Assembly: GCF_008919445.1 (NCBI RefSeq)
Contig: NZ_VSLG01000003.1
Span: 248,001 to 312,000, forward strand
Length of the DNA: 64,000 bases
Reading direction: 5' to 3'
Source of the DNA: Serinicoccus kebangsaanensis
Lineage (GTDB): Bacteria > Actinomycetota > Actinomycetes > Actinomycetales > Dermatophilaceae
In this document: one piece after another, positions 47,932 through 60,710 of the stretch
Position numbering within the stretch: the first letter of the stretch is position 1
Layout: each line of letters opens with the position of its first letter
Notes under the pieces: model-generated
What the model was told of the DNA's origin: nothing
Databases searched by the model: none
Seen by the model: the letters and a program-made list of their open reading frames with translations, nothing else
Program-made: the position numbers and the translations under genes

Positions 47932-49089
47932 GTGCGGACCAGCGACGTCTTCGAGCTCCTGCGGGACGGCCAGCCCCGGACCCGGGCGCAGCTCGCGGAG
48001 GAGACCGGGATGGCCCGGTCGACCGTCGCGGCGCGCGTCGACACGCTCCTGCGCATGGGGCTCGTGGCGCCGGTGGGGGGCGCGAGGTCGACGGGTGGGC
48101 GGCCGCCGGCGCTCATCGCGCTCAACCCTGCCGCCCGCGTCGTCGCGGGCGTGGACGTGGGCGCCACCCACGCCGTGGCTGCCCTGACCGACCTGAGCGG
48201 GACGGTGCTCGGCGAGCGCCGGGCGGAACTGGACGTGGCCGACGGGCCGGAGGTGGTCCTGGGGTGGGTGACCTCGGCGGTCGGCGAGCTGCTCGCCGAG
48301 GCGCGGCGGCCGGTCGGCGACCTGGCGGCGGTGGGCATCGGCCTGCCGGGGCCGGTCGAGCACTCGACCGGGCGACCGATCAACCCACCGATCATGCCGG
48401 GGTGGGACAGGTATGACGTGCCCGCCCACCTGCAGCGGACGTATGTCGTGCCCGTGCTCGTCGACAACGACGTCAACATCATGGCGCTGGGTGAGCGCGG
48501 TGCCTACTTCCCCACCGCGGACGACCTGATCCTGGTCAAGGTGGCCACCGGCATCGGTGCCGGCATCATCTCGGGGTCACGACTGCAGCGCGGGGCGCAG
48601 GGCACCGCCGGCGACCTCGGGCACGTGCGGGTCAGCAGCGGCGACGGCGTGATGTGCCGGTGCGGCAACGAGGGCTGCCTGGAGGCGATCGCCGCCGGGC
48701 CTGCGCTGGCGTCGGCGCTGGCTGCGGGTGGTGTCGCGGTGGACTCGACCGCAGGGGTCGTCGAGCTGGTGCGCGCTGGCGATCCCTCGGCAGTGCAGGA
48801 GGTGCGCCGCGCCGGTCGCGACATCGGCGAGGTGCTGGCGACGATGGTCAACCTGATGAACCCCTCGGTCGTAGTCATCGGTGGGCGCCTGGCCGACGCC
48901 GGCGAGCACCTGCTCGCGGGGATCCGGGAGGTCGTCTATCAGCGGTCGTTGCCGTTGGCCACCGAGCACCTGCGGATCGTGGCGTCCAAGGCGGGGGCGC
49001 AGGCGGGCGTCCTGGGGGCCGCCACGATGGCCGCTGAGCACGTGCTGTCTCCGGAGGCCATCGAGGCGGCCAGCCTCGGGGTGGCGTGA
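47932..49089 (+). CDS. ROK-family transcriptional repressor
   Basis: 385 residues. Winged HTH at residues ~1-65 (TSDVFELLRDGQPRTRAQLAEETGMARSTVAARV, in pieces), then the ROK sugar-kinase-like domain: GVDVGATHAVAAL, GIGLPGPVEHSTG, NDVNIMALGE, VATGIGAGII and the zinc site CRCGNEGCLEA. It should sense the sugar or its phosphate and release the operator at 47864-47887. GTG 47932 has no Shine-Dalgarno. Last core gene before the island. Confidence 0.9.
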   Translation: MRTSDVFELLRDGQPRTRAQLAEETGMARSTVAARVDTLLRMGLVAPVGGARSTGGRPPALIALNPAARVVAGVDVGATHAVAALTDLSGTVLGERRAELDVADGPEVVLGWVTSAVGELLAEARRPVGDLAAVGIGLPGPVEHSTGRPINPPIMPGWDRYDVPAHLQRTYVVPVLVDNDVNIMALGERGAYFPTADDLILVKVATGIGAGIISGSRLQRGAQGTAGDLGHVRVSSGDGVMCRCGNEGCLEAIAAGPALASALAAGGVAVDSTAGVVELVRAGDPSAVQEVRRAGRDIGEVLATMVNLMNPSVVVIGGRLADAGEHLLAGIREVVYQRSLPLATEHLRIVASKAGAQAGVLGAATMAAEHVLSPEAIEAASLGVA

Positions 49090-49152: not shown

Positions 49153-49845
49153 GTGAACGAAGCATTCCCAGCGGATCTCCAGGCCTGCGTAGATCGATAT
49201 GTAAGGTCGCTCCAAAATCCCAAGAATCTAATTTCGCTGCACCCTAGAGGACTAGGCCGCCCTAGGAAACAGTACTCTTCCTTGTGTGCCCCCATCGTTC
49301 TCACCGCCATGTCAACGTTCGAGGGTTTCGCCGAAGACTTCCTCGCATCTGCTCTCTACATTCAAGGCCACGGTTTTGCTCACATAGCTCGACGAGCCGA
49401 CTTAACCAACCCCACTATCAAGGACTGGGCCAAAGCAGCTCGACGTGACTTTCCAGCAATAAGCGGACGACTAGGAACAGACTTCGGAATTCGACTGTTC
49501 GACAAGCCGGACAAGGATAAGCCTTCTGGCTGGTTCAACGAATCTGACAGCAACTGGGATCAGGTCCTGGAAGCATCTGAGTCCTGGATGCAAGTTCGCC
49601 ATTGCATCACTCATGGGCTCGTCACTGGCATCGATCCGGAACGATGGCCTCTCTCTGGTTCGGGAGGCTCCCCGCAGCCAAGCGACGTACTGATAGAACG
49701 CAAGTCGGGAGAGCATTCACTCGTGCTACATGGTGCAATAAATTGCCTCCGCGTTTACACCTCAGGAGCAAAGCACGTCGCCGACAGAATAGCGGAGGAA
49801 CTTGGCCTGCAGTTGAAGTGGATGGGAATGCCGAAATTTTACTGA
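49153..49845 (+). CDS. HEPN-like protein (possible RNase)
   Basis: 230 residues. Two long helices (TAMSTFEGFAEDFLASALYI and DQVLEASESWMQVRH, positions ~51-70 and 136-150) end in Arg149-x4-His154 (RHCITH), which fits the Rx4-6H active-site motif of HEPN domains. Relatives include MAE_28990-type proteins found beside defence genes. AGGGAG precedes GTG 49153. It converges on the DUF4420 gene, so it is transcribed separately and may be an independent toxin or accessory nuclease. The family match is inferred from pattern, not a search. Confidence 0.55.
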   Translation: MNEAFPADLQACVDRYVRSLQNPKNLISLHPRGLGRPRKQYSSLCAPIVLTAMSTFEGFAEDFLASALYIQGHGFAHIARRADLTNPTIKDWAKAARRDFPAISGRLGTDFGIRLFDKPDKDKPSGWFNESDSNWDQVLEASESWMQVRHCITHGLVTGIDPERWPLSGSGGSPQPSDVLIERKSGEHSLVLHGAINCLRVYTSGAKHVADRIAEELGLQLKWMGMPKFY

Positions 49846-49884: not shown

Positions 49885-50940
49885 TCAGATCTCCAGGACT
49901 GACGCAGCGACTTGATTAGCTCCGTTGATCGGGTTAGTGCCGCTGATGGAGGCCGGCAGGTTGACGCGGAAAGCGACTGAGTGAATTTCGACGTGATGCC
50001 TCCTGGCCACGTCGTCTCGCCGGAGGATTTCGACCCCGGGGTCAGCCATGTCGTATCCCCTGAAGAACGCCACCGTGAAGTTGGAAGTGAACGGCGCGTC
50101 GTGCTGCATCGAGGTGTGGTCGTAGCCGAATCCCGACTCGGATCCGTAGCGACTGATCCTGGTGAGGAACTCCGGCACTTCGCTGGCATTGCCGGTGATC
50201 TCCAGCCGGTTGACAATCCGCTGCACTAGGTCCGGGACGGAAATCGAGTTCAGTCCCTCGCTCGCGCGCTGCAGGCCGACGCTGACCAGTAGGAGGCGGT
50301 TTTCTGCCGAGATGCCGTCCTCTCCTTCGGATGGCTCGATCTGATGGACCCCTTGGACCATATGGCTCGACGTCGAGCGCGTGGTGGTTTTGAGCTCGAC
50401 GCCAGTCCCGTTCCAGTGGAAGTCGCGTGAAGACCGCCGCCACCCGTCCCAGGACAAGACGACAGAGCCGACCTGATAGGGCTGCGCTAGGTGGCACATG
50501 GAATTGAGCAGCAGCAGTTCACCAAGAAGCCCCAGCAGCGCAGTCTCCGATAGCAGGAGGCGCTCAATCGCAAGCTCGATGATGGGTTCGGTCACTCTAA
50601 AGGCGTGCTCGACGTCTTCGTCGGCGCCGTTGCGCAGCAAGTTGGCACAGATGAAGGCGGCGACCGGGTCGAAGTGGCCCAGAGCCGGTAGTACTAGGCG
50701 GTTAGCGTGCAGTGGTGCACTGGCCTTGCGATGCCACTCGTGATGCTCAAGGGACTCTCGAACCGTCCGTGAGGCAGCCTTCAGTTCGGCGCCGGCGAGG
50801 AAGAGTTCCAGGCGGCCGGCCTGGTCTCTGGCGATGCCAATCACCTTATCCGGAGTCGTCCAATGGATGTCGCGGACCCCGCCCACCGCCGTGGCGGGAA
50901 CGGCATCGATTTCGGTGAGGATCTCCTCGTAGCTGGGCAA
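49885..50940 (-). CDS. DUF4420 PD-(D/E)XK nuclease-like protein
   Basis: 351 residues. GLLGELLLLNSM (Glu141) precedes a nuclease core with Asp173 in SRDFHWNG and VELKTTTRS (Glu182-x-Lys184), the D...ExK motif of PD-(D/E)XK enzymes; the later ISRYGSESGFGYDH region is typical of DUF4420. In known systems it is the likely cleavage subunit. It starts 12 bp after the Z1 gene stop on the same strand. Codon use is like the rest of the island. Confidence 0.8.
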   Translation of the reverse strand: MPSYEEILTEIDAVPATAVGGVRDIHWTTPDKVIGIARDQAGRLELFLAGAELKAASRTVRESLEHHEWHRKASAPLHANRLVLPALGHFDPVAAFICANLLRNGADEDVEHAFRVTEPIIELAIERLLLSETALLGLLGELLLLNSMCHLAQPYQVGSVVLSWDGWRRSSRDFHWNGTGVELKTTTRSTSSHMVQGVHQIEPSEGEDGISAENRLLLVSVGLQRASEGLNSISVPDLVQRIVNRLEITGNASEVPEFLTRISRYGSESGFGYDHTSMQHDAPFTSNFTVAFFRGYDMADPGVEILRRDDVARRHHVEIHSVAFRVNLPASISGTNPINGANQVAASVLEI

Positions 50941-50952
50941 GGTTCACCGCTC

Positions 50953-53754
50953 TCAGATCGTCACGGCGCCGGCGCGGGTGGCAGCGAACTGCTCCGGTCC
51001 GCCGGCCGGAAGGGAGACGCCGACGGCTAGCGCTGGATGGGCCTGGCCGGGCAACTGGTTCACGTAGAACAGAATTAACCCGTCGGAGCCGATGGGACGC
51101 CAGGCGGAGTCACCAGCAAGCGTGGGGACGCTGGAGCCTCGGTGATAATAGTCGAAGAATTCGTCACCCCGGTACTGGCCAGGGCCTGCGCTGGGGTCGT
51201 TGGAGCCCCACGCGGTCGTGATCTCGCCGGCGTCCACGCTCTTGGTGGTGGCCAGGATAGTGAAGGGAAGCTCGGAAGCAACCCCGGTGCTCACCGGATT
51301 ACCGTCGCCATAGCGGATGCCGATCCAGAAGCGCGGCTGGTCCACCATCTTGCGTTCGAGATCCGACATGGACCACAGTTCGGCCGGCCTACCGGATACA
51401 AAGAGACCGCGAACGGGTCTGGTTAGACAAGCGTCCCACAGACGAAGGTATGCCGCGATCGAGTAGGGGCAAACCGAGCGGACAGCCGAGGGAACACCTG
51501 CGCAAAGGGGCGCGCGGTAGAGCCCAGGCGGGACCAACGGCTGTATCGCGTTCAGCCGCGCTTCCACCTGGGCCCAGTGCTCGGCGACCTGGTGATTGCG
51601 GCCGGGCCAGTATCCGGCGAAGTCGAGAGAGTCGAGCCAGTCAGCCGCCTCGCCGAGGCTCAGCGGTGTGTCGCGGATGCGGCCTCGCGTATGGCCGACT
51701 ACGAGGTCGGACGACGGCTCTGTGTCGAACAGGTTGGTCATCAACTGCACGTTCGGGTCGGGCCGGGATCCGTCGTTGATCAACTTCACGAACGGCTTCG
51801 AGCCGGGGCTCAGCGGCCGTCGACCCAGATTGGCGATCTTGCCCGTCGCCAGGAAGCTCATGCCCTGGAGCACCACCGGATCGGGAGCGCTTCCGGCCAT
51901 TTTCTCGGTAACCGCGACCCGGACGGCCTCGTCGATGTCGTGGTAGGCACGGAAGAGGTCAAGCTGGTCGGGATCGGCGAACACTCGACACAGCTCAATG
52001 TAACTGCCTCGATAGCCGAACCAGCGCTGCATTTGCATCTGTGTGTCGGCCAACGGGTTGGCCGACGACCGCTGGAACAGCGCCGTGGTCATGCCCTCCA
52101 ACGTCAGGCCGCGCGCCATGACGTTGCCGGACACGAAGATTGTTGACAGGTCGCGAGCAGCACGCCACTTACCAGTCTCGGAGTCCAGCGTCGGCCGGAA
52201 AAACGGGCGGTCATCTGCGCCGGGGTCGCTGTTAACTACCGATACCCTAGTGCCAGGAATGACCTCTTCGGCCAGCAAGACCTCGGTGGTCGCCCAGTCG
52301 GGGAAGGGGGCCGGGTTCAAGATATTGAACTCAGCCTCGATCTCACGGGCCGAGCGCTCGTAGAGGTCCAGCCAGGCTGACCACTTGGCAGGCTCCCCAG
52401 TGATCGAGGCGAGCAACGAGCCCGGTAAGCGGGCGTCCCCGGTCTCCAGCAGCGCTCGCGCAGTAGATCTGTCGGAGACCCCTGCCCACAGAAGGACGTC
52501 CTCAGCACCCTGGAAGTGGTCCGTAATGGTCGCCGATGGGTGGAGGAGCATCGAGTGTGGCGCGGCGACGCCAATGGCCGCATTTTCCTCGGTGTCGAAT
52601 AGCAGGTTCATTGCAGTCCGGGGGCCGTGCATACCGGAACGATGAAGCCGGATCGCACCGGCCACCAGAAACGCCCGTAACGCTTCGGCGAGGTCTAGAT
52701 CCTGGTTGCCCGTGATCGGCTGACACAGCGCGGCCCGCGCACCCCTGCGGTAGAACACCTCGCCACCGGTATAGAAGGAGTGTGAGCCCTCAGGCTCGGG
52801 GTACGTCGAAGACCGCGGCGCGTCCAGGTCACCGGGATTGGTGGGATCGACGGGGTTGCCCACGTCGAGGGGCGTGCGCAGGGAGATGATGAAGTCGCGT
52901 GGGGCGAGCGGGTTGTGGTCTTCCTGCAACAGGTTCGCTTGCGGCGTGGCGGTGTAGCCGATATAGGTCGTAAAGAGGTTAGAGGGCGCAGGCTGCGCGG
53001 GCTCCCAAAGATTCGCAATGGCGCGGGGAACCTGCTTCAGGTTTCCGGATACCAGATCCTGGCCTGCCTCCACGCGGGCGTCGAGGATCGAGCCGTCGTC
53101 CGCCTCGTCGTCGAGGACAAGCATCTGCGCTGGGCGGTCGAGCTTGCTGATCGCCTCGAAGACGCTGGTCTTGAGGGCACGTCCGAGAGTGTGGAGGTGG
53201 TCAGTGTGCTTCATAGCCACCGCGATGATCGGGTTGTTGTCTTGTAGCCGACGTCGGACGGCGGCGGACGGCATTCTGTAAATGTTGGTCAGGTGTGATG
53301 GCTCCTTCGATAGGACCACGTCAGGGGACGGGACGAGAAGTCGCCGGGATATCTTCTGGGCAGAAGTTTCCCCCCCGTCCAACTGAGTCGCCAGTCGTTC
53401 GAAGGTCTGGCGCCACAGCGACAGTCGAGTGCCGGCCAGAATCACTAAAACGTCGACGCCTTCGTCTAAGGCGAGAGCACTCACCCCGAGCATCGACGCG
53501 GTCTTACCCGACTGAACGGACCCCATCACCAAGCCGGTACGCACACGGTTCGCCGGCCATGTGTGCTCGTTGGGCTCGCCATCGCCGAGGATGCCTCGCT
53601 CGAGGATGTACCTGCAGTCGGCTTCCAGCGCTGAGCGAGCTGTCGGCGTTAGGCCCGTCAGAGTCCGCAAATAGCGGGGCCACCAGGCTTCCACGAGGGT
53701 AGAGGCGACTGGAGGGTCAAAGTAGACGCGCTCTGTTCCGAGGGGTGACTGCAT
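50953..53754 (-). CDS. Z1-domain helicase-like ATPase
   Basis: 933 residues. Walker A GSVQSGKT at 78-85, Walker B with DDEAD at 215-219 (VLDDEADDGS), NLFTTYIGYTATPQANLL (~257-274), and the C-terminal Z1 signature around VSGNVMARGLTLEGMTT and QMQRWFGYRGSYIELCRVF. Z1 proteins are superfamily II-like ATPases associated with DNA-modification cassettes and DUF4420 nucleases. The start is 11 bp from the DUF262 stop. One GGTATGCC octamer lies inside (51447). Confidence 0.88.
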   Translation of the reverse strand: MQSPLGTERVYFDPPVASTLVEAWWPRYLRTLTGLTPTARSALEADCRYILERGILGDGEPNEHTWPANRVRTGLVMGSVQSGKTASMLGVSALALDEGVDVLVILAGTRLSLWRQTFERLATQLDGGETSAQKISRRLLVPSPDVVLSKEPSHLTNIYRMPSAAVRRRLQDNNPIIAVAMKHTDHLHTLGRALKTSVFEAISKLDRPAQMLVLDDEADDGSILDARVEAGQDLVSGNLKQVPRAIANLWEPAQPAPSNLFTTYIGYTATPQANLLQEDHNPLAPRDFIISLRTPLDVGNPVDPTNPGDLDAPRSSTYPEPEGSHSFYTGGEVFYRRGARAALCQPITGNQDLDLAEALRAFLVAGAIRLHRSGMHGPRTAMNLLFDTEENAAIGVAAPHSMLLHPSATITDHFQGAEDVLLWAGVSDRSTARALLETGDARLPGSLLASITGEPAKWSAWLDLYERSAREIEAEFNILNPAPFPDWATTEVLLAEEVIPGTRVSVVNSDPGADDRPFFRPTLDSETGKWRAARDLSTIFVSGNVMARGLTLEGMTTALFQRSSANPLADTQMQMQRWFGYRGSYIELCRVFADPDQLDLFRAYHDIDEAVRVAVTEKMAGSAPDPVVLQGMSFLATGKIANLGRRPLSPGSKPFVKLINDGSRPDPNVQLMTNLFDTEPSSDLVVGHTRGRIRDTPLSLGEAADWLDSLDFAGYWPGRNHQVAEHWAQVEARLNAIQPLVPPGLYRAPLCAGVPSAVRSVCPYSIAAYLRLWDACLTRPVRGLFVSGRPAELWSMSDLERKMVDQPRFWIGIRYGDGNPVSTGVASELPFTILATTKSVDAGEITTAWGSNDPSAGPGQYRGDEFFDYYHRGSSVPTLAGDSAWRPIGSDGLILFYVNQLPGQAHPALAVGVSLPAGGPEQFAATRAGAVTI

Positions 53755-53765
53755 GGTTTCGCACG

Positions 53766-55688
53766 CTAGTCGTCAGTCTTGGGCACGATTATCATGGCGC
53801 GAAGCGATTCGAAGCCAGATGACCCAAACTTATCTCGCACAGCAGCCGAGGCTACGTTGGGGTCAATCCCCAGCAACTCAACGAGTTCGGTGGCGATCCG
53901 GGCGATGTAGTCCCATTGAGTCCTAGTCTGGGTCTTTTCCATGCGCTTCCACTGGTTTTTGCTCGCGTTGAAGATGGCGTCCGCGTTGGCGTCGATGCGG
54001 TCCTCGATGTCCTCCGGGGAAGCCGCCATTGCGAATGCGATGCCGACCAACGACCCCACTAGTTGCAACTCCTGCCACTTTCCCCCACTGCCGCCATCCT
54101 TGAATTCTGGTGCCCAGAGTTCGTCGTGACTCATGTGCGTTTCAGCTACGCCCGCAATCCACGTGAACAGCCTCGCCAACGTTGAGTTGTCCCGCAGCGA
54201 ATGGTCTGGGTGCTCCTCCGCGTCACTGACTTCGTCCAAGAGCTGATCGATGTGCTTAGCGGTGGACATCAACGGCTTGCCATTGGTGTCGCGCAGGAGC
54301 ACCGCGAGGATCCACGATAGCACCTTGGTGCGCTTGTATCGGGAGTCTCCGAAACCGTAGTCTTTCAGTGTCTTTCCGAGATCCTCGAGGCCCGGGACGT
54401 CCACGAGCGCCCCGTTCGCGATCTGGTCAGCCCGGGTTCCAGGGGCGGCGTCGCCGGCCGCGAACAGCGTCGCCGGCATCAGCGTCACCTCGTGGTACAC
54501 CGCGTTTCGGATCTCTTCGGCGTTCAGGTGGACGCCCTGCTTATTGTAGAGTTTGAACACCTCGTGGATCTGGCGCTGAGTGGCCTCGAGGTACTCGATA
54601 ACCGGGATCTGGTAGTCGGGAGCGCCCGTGAAGAGTTCATCGACGTCGATCTCCTGACCAGAAACCCGGATCTTTTTCTCGCTGATTTCGGTGTAGTATT
54701 TTCCCTGGAAGGATTCGAGGTACTCGCCCCGCAGTCCGCCGTCATCGTTGTTGCGCAACTTGAATGGGTAGTAGTACTCATCTTCGAGCTTGGTGGTGAG
54801 GGTCTCCTTCTCGAGCACCTTCCACGCTCGGCGGAAGGCCGGGTAGTCCGTGGTGAACAGAGAGAGCAGGCCTTGGCCTTTGTGGCGGGCATCTGCCGCC
54901 CTGACCCTCTCGAGAGCGCGCGGATGTGCCCCCACGAACCGCAGAATCGCCGTCAGGCGCTGTTTTCCGTCAACGACCTCGTGAGTGGTTGCCCCCTCCG
55001 TCCGCAGGAGGATCAACGACGGTAGAGGAATGCCTCGCAAGATCGACTCGATGAGCGCCTGCCGGTCACCAGTGCGCCAGACGTCGCCTCGCTGATAGGA
55101 GGGGGCGAGGTTCAACTTCTTCTTGGTGAGTTGGAAGATGTGCCACACTGCCGCCTTGGCCGACACTGGCTGAAGGCTGTCGGACTCGGCGACGCTATCT
55201 TCCTCGCCCGACCAGATTTCGGACCACAATGTCGTGGCTTCTGCGCGGCTGACTCCATCGGTGTCCAGATCCTCTAGGAACCTCTGCTGGAGACCCACCG
55301 CAGTCTCGACCCGGTTACGGAGCTTCTCGACTGTCTTGACGGACAGTTGCGCGGCTCCGTCACCGACTTCGAGGGCCTCGTCCATCTCAATGCCGAGTTC
55401 GCTCGCCAACGCCTTGACGAAGTCATCGTAAGAATTGGTGGGCAGGTCGCCGCTTAGCGAGAGCCATCCTTGCACGTCGCTTAACCGATGAATCCATGCA
55501 TCGGTGCTGAAGTCGACGTCCTCGCGGGTGAACATGGCAGCGTTCACCGAGATCCCATCTGGAACGTCGGGTGATTCCGATAGAGTCGCGAGCCCGTCCG
55601 CGATGCTCTCCCACATTTGGGTCTTGGGATCCTCCTCCTCGTTGTCGGCGGGCACGTCCATGTCAAGGTCTTCGAGGTCGAGGCTCAT
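53766..55688 (-). CDS. DUF262 (ParB/Srx-fold) protein
   Basis: 640 residues. After a ~170-residue acidic N-terminus, the DUF262 domain shows YQRGDVWRTGDRQALIESIL (198-217), LPSLILL and DGKQRLTAILRF with the nuclease-fold motif DGKQR at 240-244; GVHLNAEEIRNA follows (~390-400). DUF262 is the NTPase/ParB-like half of GmrSD enzymes that cut glucosylated DNA; the HNH-bearing DUF1524 half is not seen here. ATG overlaps the methyltransferase stop by 4 bp, so the two are coupled. Takes the place usually held by a GHKL ATPase in Z1 cassettes. Confidence 0.85.
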   Translation of the reverse strand: MSLDLEDLDMDVPADNEEEDPKTQMWESIADGLATLSESPDVPDGISVNAAMFTREDVDFSTDAWIHRLSDVQGWLSLSGDLPTNSYDDFVKALASELGIEMDEALEVGDGAAQLSVKTVEKLRNRVETAVGLQQRFLEDLDTDGVSRAEATTLWSEIWSGEEDSVAESDSLQPVSAKAAVWHIFQLTKKKLNLAPSYQRGDVWRTGDRQALIESILRGIPLPSLILLRTEGATTHEVVDGKQRLTAILRFVGAHPRALERVRAADARHKGQGLLSLFTTDYPAFRRAWKVLEKETLTTKLEDEYYYPFKLRNNDDGGLRGEYLESFQGKYYTEISEKKIRVSGQEIDVDELFTGAPDYQIPVIEYLEATQRQIHEVFKLYNKQGVHLNAEEIRNAVYHEVTLMPATLFAAGDAAPGTRADQIANGALVDVPGLEDLGKTLKDYGFGDSRYKRTKVLSWILAVLLRDTNGKPLMSTAKHIDQLLDEVSDAEEHPDHSLRDNSTLARLFTWIAGVAETHMSHDELWAPEFKDGGSGGKWQELQLVGSLVGIAFAMAASPEDIEDRIDANADAIFNASKNQWKRMEKTQTRTQWDYIARIATELVELLGIDPNVASAAVRDKFGSSGFESLRAMIIVPKTDD

Positions 55689-57088
55689 GCGAGGACTCCA
55701 AGTAGTTCACAAGTCGGGTCGGTCTTTGACGCCCCAGTAGGCGTCTGGGGTGCAGGAAGGCCTATCAGCAAAGGCTTGGCAATGGCCTCCACCACGCTGG
55801 CGTTCACGGCGTTGCCGAGCGCCCTGTAGGCATCAAGGTCGCTCTCGGGCAGGCAGATGTCTCCGAGGCTCTGGAGCTGAGCGCACTCGCGGGGGGTCAT
55901 GTAGCGCCGCTCGCCGGCAAGGTTGGCACCAAGGATCGGCACCTGGGTCTGGGTGAACGCGATGAGGCTGGGAGCCGTCGTAGGCCGCTTGATGCGCAAC
56001 CCCGAAGCGCGCGCCTGGAGCACGAAGTTGTCGATGTTGCGAACCTCGCCCTGGGCGTTCCACTCCATCTTCTGAAAGCTCGATGGGAAAGTCCACGGTT
56101 GCCAATGGTTCAGCCACGGCGTTATCCACGAGGCGTTGTCCCGAAAAAACTCGCGGTTCTGGCGGATGAAAACTCGCTTCCAGCGCGGAAACGCGAGTTC
56201 CCCATCGCGACGAGCGTGACTCGGGATCAACTCGTGCTGCTTAGCGATGCGCAGGCCGTCGAGATCGAAGCCAAAGCTACCCTGTACGTGCATGCCACTA
56301 AGGCCGTACTTACGTCGACGCTCCCAAACTGCTGGAGGGGTGTCATGCTCGTACGGGTACGTGGCGCCGAACTCCATGGCCCAGACTGGGAACGCCGGCA
56401 TCTTCAACGATGCCGGGGAGCGCTTGAGAAAATCGCCCCACATGTCGATCGCTTCGAGTGTGCGCTCTGGGATGGCACGCGGGGCCGACACGTCCCTGCG
56501 CAGAACCGACGTGATGTCCGTGTGTCCCCTATGCTTCTCCGGCCAAGTGAAGCCATCGAGGCTATCCAATGAACCAACGAAGTAGGCGCGGTCACGCACC
56601 TGGGGGATGCCGAACTCGTGTGGTGAGAAGTGTGCGACCTCCACCGCGTAGCCGAGCCCTCGCAGCTTGGCCAAGATCGTGTCCTGAGTGCGCCCACCGT
56701 CGTGCTTGAGGATGTTGGGGACGTTCTCCAGAATGAACCGACTGGGTCGCTTCACCTTGAGGATCTGGAGGACCTTAAAGAAGAGGTTCCCCTGGGAGGT
56801 GTCGCCGAAACCGAGTTGGTCTCCAGCCTTGGAAAACGGCTGACACGGAAAGCCCGCAGCCAAGAGCGCATGGTCGGGCACTTCCCGATCGATGTCGTCG
56901 TCGGTGTCGAGTCCGTTCAGATCGGTCCAGGCGGGCAGACCGTAGTTGTCGGTGTAGAGCTGGTTGAGCGCGGGTTCCCACTCTGCGGCGAAGACCGCTT
57001 CGCCCCCTAGCTTCTTCAACGCCACATGAAACCCGCCGAGCCCCGCGAAGAGGTCGATGAAGGCGAAGGTCGACGACTTCGTCTCCAT
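55685..57088 (-). CDS. dcm: C5-cytosine DNA methyltransferase
   Basis: 467 residues from ATG 57088 (AGGAGA upstream). Motif I FAGLGG (14-19), motif IV GFPCQPFSKAG with catalytic Cys82, ENVPNIL (motif VI), VRDRAYFVG (motif VIII) and ALGNAVNASVVEAIA (motif X) are all present, so it should be active. It is first in the four-gene cassette and would protect host DNA if the DUF4420/Z1 part cleaves. The target-recognition region (~235-370) gives no readable specificity. The open frame extends upstream without a start or site as good as 57088. Confidence 0.92.
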   Translation of the reverse strand: METKSSTFAFIDLFAGLGGFHVALKKLGGEAVFAAEWEPALNQLYTDNYGLPAWTDLNGLDTDDDIDREVPDHALLAAGFPCQPFSKAGDQLGFGDTSQGNLFFKVLQILKVKRPSRFILENVPNILKHDGGRTQDTILAKLRGLGYAVEVAHFSPHEFGIPQVRDRAYFVGSLDSLDGFTWPEKHRGHTDITSVLRRDVSAPRAIPERTLEAIDMWGDFLKRSPASLKMPAFPVWAMEFGATYPYEHDTPPAVWERRRKYGLSGMHVQGSFGFDLDGLRIAKQHELIPSHARRDGELAFPRWKRVFIRQNREFFRDNASWITPWLNHWQPWTFPSSFQKMEWNAQGEVRNIDNFVLQARASGLRIKRPTTAPSLIAFTQTQVPILGANLAGERRYMTPRECAQLQSLGDICLPESDLDAYRALGNAVNASVVEAIAKPLLIGLPAPQTPTGASKTDPTCELLGVLA

Positions 57089-57393: not shown

Positions 57394-57666
57394 ATGCCGC
57401 AGATGATCGATCTGAAGTGCCAGGAGCATCGCGTTCGCCTGGAGGGAGAGTTCTTGGGCAAGTACTCCTCGTTGACCGCGGCCGCTAAGCCGTCGCCCGC
57501 CGTAGGGGGTTGGGAAAGGAGACCGCCGTCCGTGGGCGATACAGGTCTAGGGCGGAGGTGCCCAACGCCGGGGCGCCAGGAGCGAAGAACTGGCCGAGAT
57601 CCGAAAGCTGACGGCAGAGGACCGGCAACTGCGGGAAGACGTCGCGATACTGAAGGCCGCAGCTAA
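57394..57666 (+). CDS. Doubtful 90-residue frame with a strong ribosome site
   Basis: ATG 57394 follows GAGGAGGAGA by eight bases, an excellent ribosome site, and the first ~35 residues (MIDLKCQEHRVRLEGEF) look coded. The remainder is Arg/Pro-rich and reads the IS3 remnant in the wrong frame. It is most likely the 5' stub of a gene truncated by the IS element. Function unknown. Confidence 0.3.
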   Translation: MPQMIDLKCQEHRVRLEGEFLGKYSSLTAAAKPSPAVGGWERRPPSVGDTGLGRRCPTPGRQERRTGRDPKADGRGPATAGRRRDTEGRS

Positions 57667-57715
57667 CCTTCGTGTCCGAGAGTCTGGGGCACTGTCGCGG
57701 GGTCTCACCAAGTAG
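57581..57715 (+). pseudogene. IS3-type transposase OrfA remnant
   Basis: A 44-codon piece reading SEELAEIRKLTAEDRQ and LREDVAILKAAANL, then a stop, matches the leucine-zipper end of IS3-family OrfA (consensus ...ELRRENEILKAAS). The HTH part and OrfB are missing, and no terminal repeats are seen. The rest of the 733-bp gap 57089-57821 contains the methyltransferase promoter region, the truncated frame above and no other gene; the ~100 bp before nrdJ is featureless. Confidence 0.6.
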
Positions 57716-57821: not shown

Positions 57822-60710
57822 TCAGCTGCAGCCGCTGGTGCTGCCGCAACCCTCGCAGACATAGCACGACCCTGCCGGACGCATCTTGGTCCCGCAGGTC
57901 ATGCACATCGGCGCGTCGGCGACCTTGCCCTGGAACTGCTCGAGCAGCTCGGCCGAGGAGTGGATCCCCGACTCCGCCTGGCGGGCGTCGGCGGCACCTG
58001 CGCCGGACTGGTCGGCGACCTTCTCCGCCTTCTCCTTCTTGGCCGGCGTGGTCGCGGCAGACTGGCTGAGGTTCTGCAGCTCGTCCTCGTAGTCGTCGTC
58101 GTCGTTCGACGGCTCCAGCGGCGCATAGGAGCCGGTCTCCAGCTGGCGCGCCCGCTCCTCCGCAGTGTGGATGCCCATGTAGGACCGGGTCTCGAAGTCC
58201 AGGTAGTCCAGCGCCAGGCGGCGGAAGACGTAGTCCATGATCGACTGCGCCATGCGCACGTCCGGGTCGTCGGTCATGCCGGCAGGCTCGAAGCGCAGGT
58301 TGGTGAACTTCTCCACGAAGGTCTCCAGCGGCACGCCGTACTGCAGGCCGATCGACACCGCGATCGAGAAGGCGTCCATGACACCGGCCAGGGTCGAGCC
58401 CTGCTTGCCGAACTTGAGGAAGAGCTCGCCCAGGTCGCCGCTGTCATACGTCCCGGCAGTCAGGTAGCCCTCAGCCCCGCCCACGGCGAAGCTCGTGGTC
58501 TGGCTGGCCCGACGCTTCGGCAGCCGGGTGCGGACCGGGCGGTACTCCACGACCTTCTCCGGAGCGGCCTCGGCCTTCTCGTCCGCCTTGGCGTCCTTGT
58601 CCTTCTTGCCGTCGGACAGCGGCTGGCCGACCTTGCAGTTGTCGCGGTAGACCGCGAGCGCCTTGAGGCCGAGCTTCCACCCCTGCAGGTAGACCTCCGC
58701 GATCTCCTCGACCGTCGCCGACTCCGGCAGGTTCACCGTCTTGGAGATCGCGCCGGACAGGAAGGGCTGCACCGCCGCCATCATCCGCACGTGGCCCATC
58801 GGCTTGATCGCCCGGGCGCCCATCGCGGTGTCGAAGACCTCGTAGTGCTCCGGCTTCAGACCCGGGGCGTCGATGACGTGACCGTTCTCCGCGATGAACT
58901 CGACGATCGCCTCGATCGTCTCGTCGGCATACCCCAGGCGGTTGAGCGCGCGCGGGATGGTCTGGTTGACGATCTGCATCGACCCGCCGCCGACCAGCTT
59001 CTTGAACTTCACCAGCGAGAAGTCGGGCTCGATGCCGGTGGTGTCGCAGTCCATCATGAAGCCGATGGTGCCGGTGGGTGCGAGCACCGAGGCCTGGGCG
59101 TTGCGGTAGCCGTGCTTCTCCCCCGTCTTCACGACGGCGTCCCACGCCTTGGTCGCGGCCTTGTGCACCGAGGCGTCCATGGCGTGCAGCGTGCGGATCT
59201 CGTCGTTCGCCGCCTGGTGCTTGCGCATGACGCGCTTGTGCGCGTCGGCGTTGCGGGCATACCCGTTGTAGGGGCCAACCACACCGGCGATCTCCGCCGA
59301 CCGCTTGTAGGCAGCACCGGTGAGCAGCGAGGTCAGCGACGCGGCAAGCGCCCGGCCGCCCTCGGAGTCATAGCCGTGGCCGGTCGCCATGAGCAGCGCG
59401 CCCAGGTTGGCGTAGCCGATGCCGAGCTGGCGGTAGTTGCGGGTGGTCTCGCCGATCGGGTCGGTCGGGAAGTCCGCGAAGCAGATGGAGATGTCCATCG
59501 CGGTGATGACCAGCTCGGTGACCTTCTGGTAGGTGTCGACGTCGAAGGTGTCGTCCTCGTTGAGGAACTTCAGCAGGTTCAGCGAGGCGAGGTTGCAGCT
59601 GGAGTTGTCCAGCGACATGTATTCGGAGCAGGGGTTGGACGCGGTGATCCGGCCGGTCTCGGGGTTGGTGTGCCAGTCGTTGATGGTGCCGTCGTACTGG
59701 ATGCCCGGGTCGGCGCACTCCCACGCGGCCTGTGCCATCTTGGTGAACAGCTCGTGGGCGTCGACGGTGGAGACGACGGAGCCGTCCTTGCGGGAGGTGA
59801 GGCCGAACTCGCCACCGTCCTCGACCGCCTTCATGAACTCGTCGGAGACGCGGACCGAGTTGTTGGCGTTCTGATACTGCACCGACACGATGTCGTTGCC
59901 GCCGAGGTCCATGTCGAAGCCGGCGTCGCGCAGCGCACGGATCTTGTCCTCCTCGCGCGCCTTGGTGTCGATGAACTCCTCGATGTCCGGGTGGTCGACG
60001 TCCAGCACGACCATCTTCGCCGCGCGGCGGGTCGCGCCACCGGACTTGATGGTGCCCGCGGAGGCGTCCGCACCGCGCATGAAGGAGACCGGGCCGGAAG
60101 CGGTGCCCCCGGAGGAGAGCAGCTCCTTGGAGGAGCGGATGCGGGAGAGGTTGAGGCCGGCGCCCGAGCCGCCCTTGAAGATGAAGCCCTCCTCCTTGTA
60201 CCAGTTGAGGATCGAGTCCATCGAGTCGTCCACCGAGAGGATGAAGCACGCGCTGACCTGCTGCGGGCTCTTGGTGCCGACGTTGAACCAGACCGGAGAG
60301 TTGAAGGAGAAGATCTGGTGGACGAGGGCATACGTCAGCTCGTGCTCGAAGACCTCGGCGTCCTCCTCAGTCGTGAAGTATCCGTGCTCCTTGCCCGCCT
60401 TGACGTAGGTCAGGACGACGCGGTCGACCAGCTGCTTGAGGCCGGTCTCACGCTGCTCGGTGCCGACGGCGCCGCGGAAGTACTTCGTCGTGACGATGGT
60501 CGAGGCGTTCGCCGACCAGAAGTCCGGGAACTCCACCCCGCGCTGCTCGAAGATCGTGTCGCCCGTCTTCCAGTTGGTCTGGACGACGTCCCGCTGCTCC
60601 CAGGTGATCTGGTCGTACGGGTGCACACCCGGAGTGGTGAAGATGCGCTCGATCTTGAGGCCCTTGCCGCTGCGGCGCGTGCGCGTCTTCGACCCGGTCG
60701 TCTCGGTCAT
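57822..60710 (-). CDS. nrdJ: Adenosylcobalamin-dependent ribonucleotide reductase (class II)
   Basis: 962 residues. It makes deoxyribonucleotides using a B12 radical, without oxygen dependence. Motifs: PVWFNVGTKSPQQVSACFILSVDDSMDS (residues ~135-165, with the catalytic Cys), NPCSEYMSLDNSSCNLASLNL, APTGTIGFMMDCDTTGIEP and a C-terminal zinc/redox tail with six Cys (CMTCGTKM...CYVCEGCG). AAGGAG before ATG 60710; 79 bp downstream of nrdR on the same strand. No cobalamin riboswitch is apparent in that gap, so it is probably co-transcribed with nrdR. Confidence 0.97.
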   Translation of the reverse strand: MTETTGSKTRTRRSGKGLKIERIFTTPGVHPYDQITWEQRDVVQTNWKTGDTIFEQRGVEFPDFWSANASTIVTTKYFRGAVGTEQRETGLKQLVDRVVLTYVKAGKEHGYFTTEEDAEVFEHELTYALVHQIFSFNSPVWFNVGTKSPQQVSACFILSVDDSMDSILNWYKEEGFIFKGGSGAGLNLSRIRSSKELLSSGGTASGPVSFMRGADASAGTIKSGGATRRAAKMVVLDVDHPDIEEFIDTKAREEDKIRALRDAGFDMDLGGNDIVSVQYQNANNSVRVSDEFMKAVEDGGEFGLTSRKDGSVVSTVDAHELFTKMAQAAWECADPGIQYDGTINDWHTNPETGRITASNPCSEYMSLDNSSCNLASLNLLKFLNEDDTFDVDTYQKVTELVITAMDISICFADFPTDPIGETTRNYRQLGIGYANLGALLMATGHGYDSEGGRALAASLTSLLTGAAYKRSAEIAGVVGPYNGYARNADAHKRVMRKHQAANDEIRTLHAMDASVHKAATKAWDAVVKTGEKHGYRNAQASVLAPTGTIGFMMDCDTTGIEPDFSLVKFKKLVGGGSMQIVNQTIPRALNRLGYADETIEAIVEFIAENGHVIDAPGLKPEHYEVFDTAMGARAIKPMGHVRMMAAVQPFLSGAISKTVNLPESATVEEIAEVYLQGWKLGLKALAVYRDNCKVGQPLSDGKKDKDAKADEKAEAAPEKVVEYRPVRTRLPKRRASQTTSFAVGGAEGYLTAGTYDSGDLGELFLKFGKQGSTLAGVMDAFSIAVSIGLQYGVPLETFVEKFTNLRFEPAGMTDDPDVRMAQSIMDYVFRRLALDYLDFETRSYMGIHTAEERARQLETGSYAPLEPSNDDDDYEDELQNLSQSAATTPAKKEKAEKVADQSGAGAADARQAESGIHSSAELLEQFQGKVADAPMCMTCGTKMRPAGSCYVCEGCGSTSGCS

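Follow-up and report, generated by a model that had tools for sequence, protein, structure and literature searches.

A four-gene DNA-defence cassette of Serinicoccus kebangsaanensis with a DUF262 protein in place of a standard part

The window, a stretch of 64,000 nucleotides from Serinicoccus kebangsaanensis, carries a four-gene DNA-defence cassette on its minus strand (49885..57088). It brings together an enzyme that marks DNA, a motor, a nuclease and a proposed nucleotide switch of the DUF262 kind. The genes encode, in order, a C5-cytosine DNA methyltransferase (55685..57088, 467 amino acids), a DUF262/GmrSD_N protein (53766..55688, 640 amino acids), the predicted Z1 ATPase (50953..53754) and a DUF4420 PD-(D/E)XK-type nuclease (49885..50940, 351 amino acids). 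The original prediction had given this order, and our analysis confirmed it. The operon consists of these four genes. On the minus strand, the interval that separates the cassette from nrdJ (57822) contains only open reading frames of up to 119 amino acids, and the gene downstream is convergent.

Pfam places GmrSD_N at residues 187-398 of the DUF262 protein (1.1e-25). The predicted DGKQR motif was borne out, with D240, G241, Q243 and R244 invariant in 47/47 proteins. The AlphaFold model (predicted local distance difference test, pLDDT, 88.7) has DndI as its top Foldseek match (9jfl_B, E 7.9e-3, probability 0.96), and the best PADLOC match of the domain is NsnA (3.7e-25), which we take to be Menshen. 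We propose that the protein is a ParB/Srx-fold nucleoside triphosphatase (NTPase) switch. The DUF262 domain with the DGxQR motif is shared with DndI, SspE, BrxU and GmrSD; however, the cassette has no DUF1524 HNH nuclease, and its nuclease comes as a protein of its own, accompanied by a motor. Of the Type IV GmrSD architecture, the N-terminal DUF262 domain is present and the DUF1524 HNH domain is not. Since Pfam found no DUF1524 in the window protein or in the five relatives scanned (L069, L134, L144, L145 and L119), we rejected the reading as a GmrSD nuclease. Beyond residue 400 no histidine or asparagine is invariant in the 47 aligned proteins, H518 being nearly so. Menshen, Dazbog and PD-T4-2 likewise have a DUF262 protein without DUF1524.

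GmrSD and BrxU, with DUF262 and DUF1524, target modified cytosines, and the DUF262 of Dazbog may recognise methylated DNA (PMC10952713). A sensor of modified cytosines is nevertheless quite unlikely here, as it would need to ignore the 5-methylcytosine presumably made by the cassette itself, and DUF1524 is absent. Alternatively, the DUF262 protein would serve as the subunit that recognises the target, as the B3 domain does in R.CglI, or would itself be a nuclease, and its NTPase motif would be purely structural. Reading of the sequence needs some subunit, and nuclease activity is possible in ParB/Srx proteins (PMC4619093). The invariance of the motif argues against this unlikely alternative, and in co-variation with the methyltransferase the DUF262 windows were not outstanding. 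A recognition role and the proposed NTPase switch are not mutually exclusive.

The methyltransferase matches Pfam DNA_methylase (2.6e-56) and NCBIfam dcm (1.5e-58, above cut-off), and its GFPCQPF and ENV motifs are invariant in 7/7 aligned sequences. Methyltransferase linkage would also be predicted if the DUF262 protein were an activator similar to SspE, which shares the domain and depends on host phosphorothioate marks for its action (PMC9646914). We consider this improbable, since the closest fold match, DndI, acts independently of the mark and has a toxic effect on cells that lack it (PMC11662687). Moreover, where the core is split or partly missing (L097, L120, L134 and L144), the methyltransferase is retained, which an activator need not show, although these loci are few and L120 possibly has sequencing errors. 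The restriction cores of L071 and L127 are nearly identical, but their methyltransferases share only 46% identity and are oriented differently relative to the core: a natural methyltransferase exchange. A Vsr-type mismatch endonuclease gene, often adjoining the methyltransferase, occurs in 51 of 117 loci (e.g. L071:4250-4735), where the 117 count a few places twice; none was seen in the window cassette.

The DUF4420 protein matches its Pfam family (1.9e-16) and has the E-D-ExK active site typical of DUF4420 PD-(D/E)XK nucleases, with D173 in 43/43 and E141, E182 and K184 each in 42/43 sequences. Its predicted structure (pLDDT 92.0) had no fold match to a solved nuclease in the PDB.

Among the closest known systems are MZA (mzaABCDE) and the MORC/paraMORC operons with a distinct superfamily II helicase (Iyer et al. 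2008). MZA has the GHKL adenosine triphosphatase (ATPase) MzaB, whereas the cassette does not, as had been predicted: PF13589 had no match in the genome. A GHKL domain concealed within the DUF262 protein was looked for by Pfam, Foldseek and profile-profile comparison and was unsupported (0.6% probability against 11 GHKL proteins, in a weak control where two groups called GHKL score 0.2% against each other). An independent Pfam model gave 19 of 31 genomes versus 0 of 7. By profiles from 19 and 6 sequences, built partly from the very loci compared, the GHKL contrast was 27 of 32 loci set against 74 loci, where scores of the first profile had to reach 100 bits in the 32 loci and no floor was set in the 74. 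MzaE (AIPR) and MzaA (sigma factor) were not in the operon in a search that covered the locus. Cassette proteins reached 114.6 bits versus 1500 and 23.5 versus 420, which makes them homologous and outside the equivalogs. In CglI/NgoAVII, where an unmethylated target triggers ATP hydrolysis, the R protein has a PLD nuclease and a B3-like domain; Pfam found neither in the four cassette proteins, the nuclease here is DUF4420 and DUF262 is additional.

A published six-gene type has three core genes in common with the cassette plus three extra, and its text does not mention DUF262; we infer that L081, L082, L084, L085, L166 and L167 belong to it. In the largest of their extra proteins, motifs resembling those of GHKL can be read by eye (E-T-x-Q-N-x-W-D-A, D-x-G-x-x-G-L-x-G-P, GG[T/S]YGFGK and GTS), which Pfam, NCBIfam and PDB sequence searches did not confirm, and in PADLOC this protein matches PDC-M33A alone (4.8e-10). 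Its reading as a divergent DUF262 was unsupported (0.4% by profile-profile comparison, a weak method). L170-L172, three sequences 88% identical, may have a ParB-like partner, which in L171 matches PHROG ParB (6e-5) and PD-Lambda-5_A (1.6e-18); Pfam, PDB sequence search and profile-profile comparison gave it no support.

The cassette is flanked by nrdJ (57822-60710) and a ROK regulator (47932-49089). The DNA next to nrdJ varies in ten same-genus genomes: the ROK gene is 5.1 kb away in one and 2.4 kb away in a second, while the stretches fetched from the remaining eight yielded no ROK gene. This is consistent with a site of repeated insertion. The adjoining gene convergent to DUF4420 (49153-49845, plus strand, 230 amino acids) gave only marginal helix-turn-helix/terminase-like matches, appears HEPN-like by eye and had no relative among 148 fetched loci. 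As read by eye, the gap before nrdJ (~57560-57700, plus strand) holds a remnant resembling the end of an IS3-type OrfA.

The original interpretation, a possible distinct subtype whose sensor recognises modified or phage DNA, was supported in part. The cassette type is found repeatedly across many unrelated bacteria. In it, one standard part of a known system family is exchanged for another kind of molecular switch.
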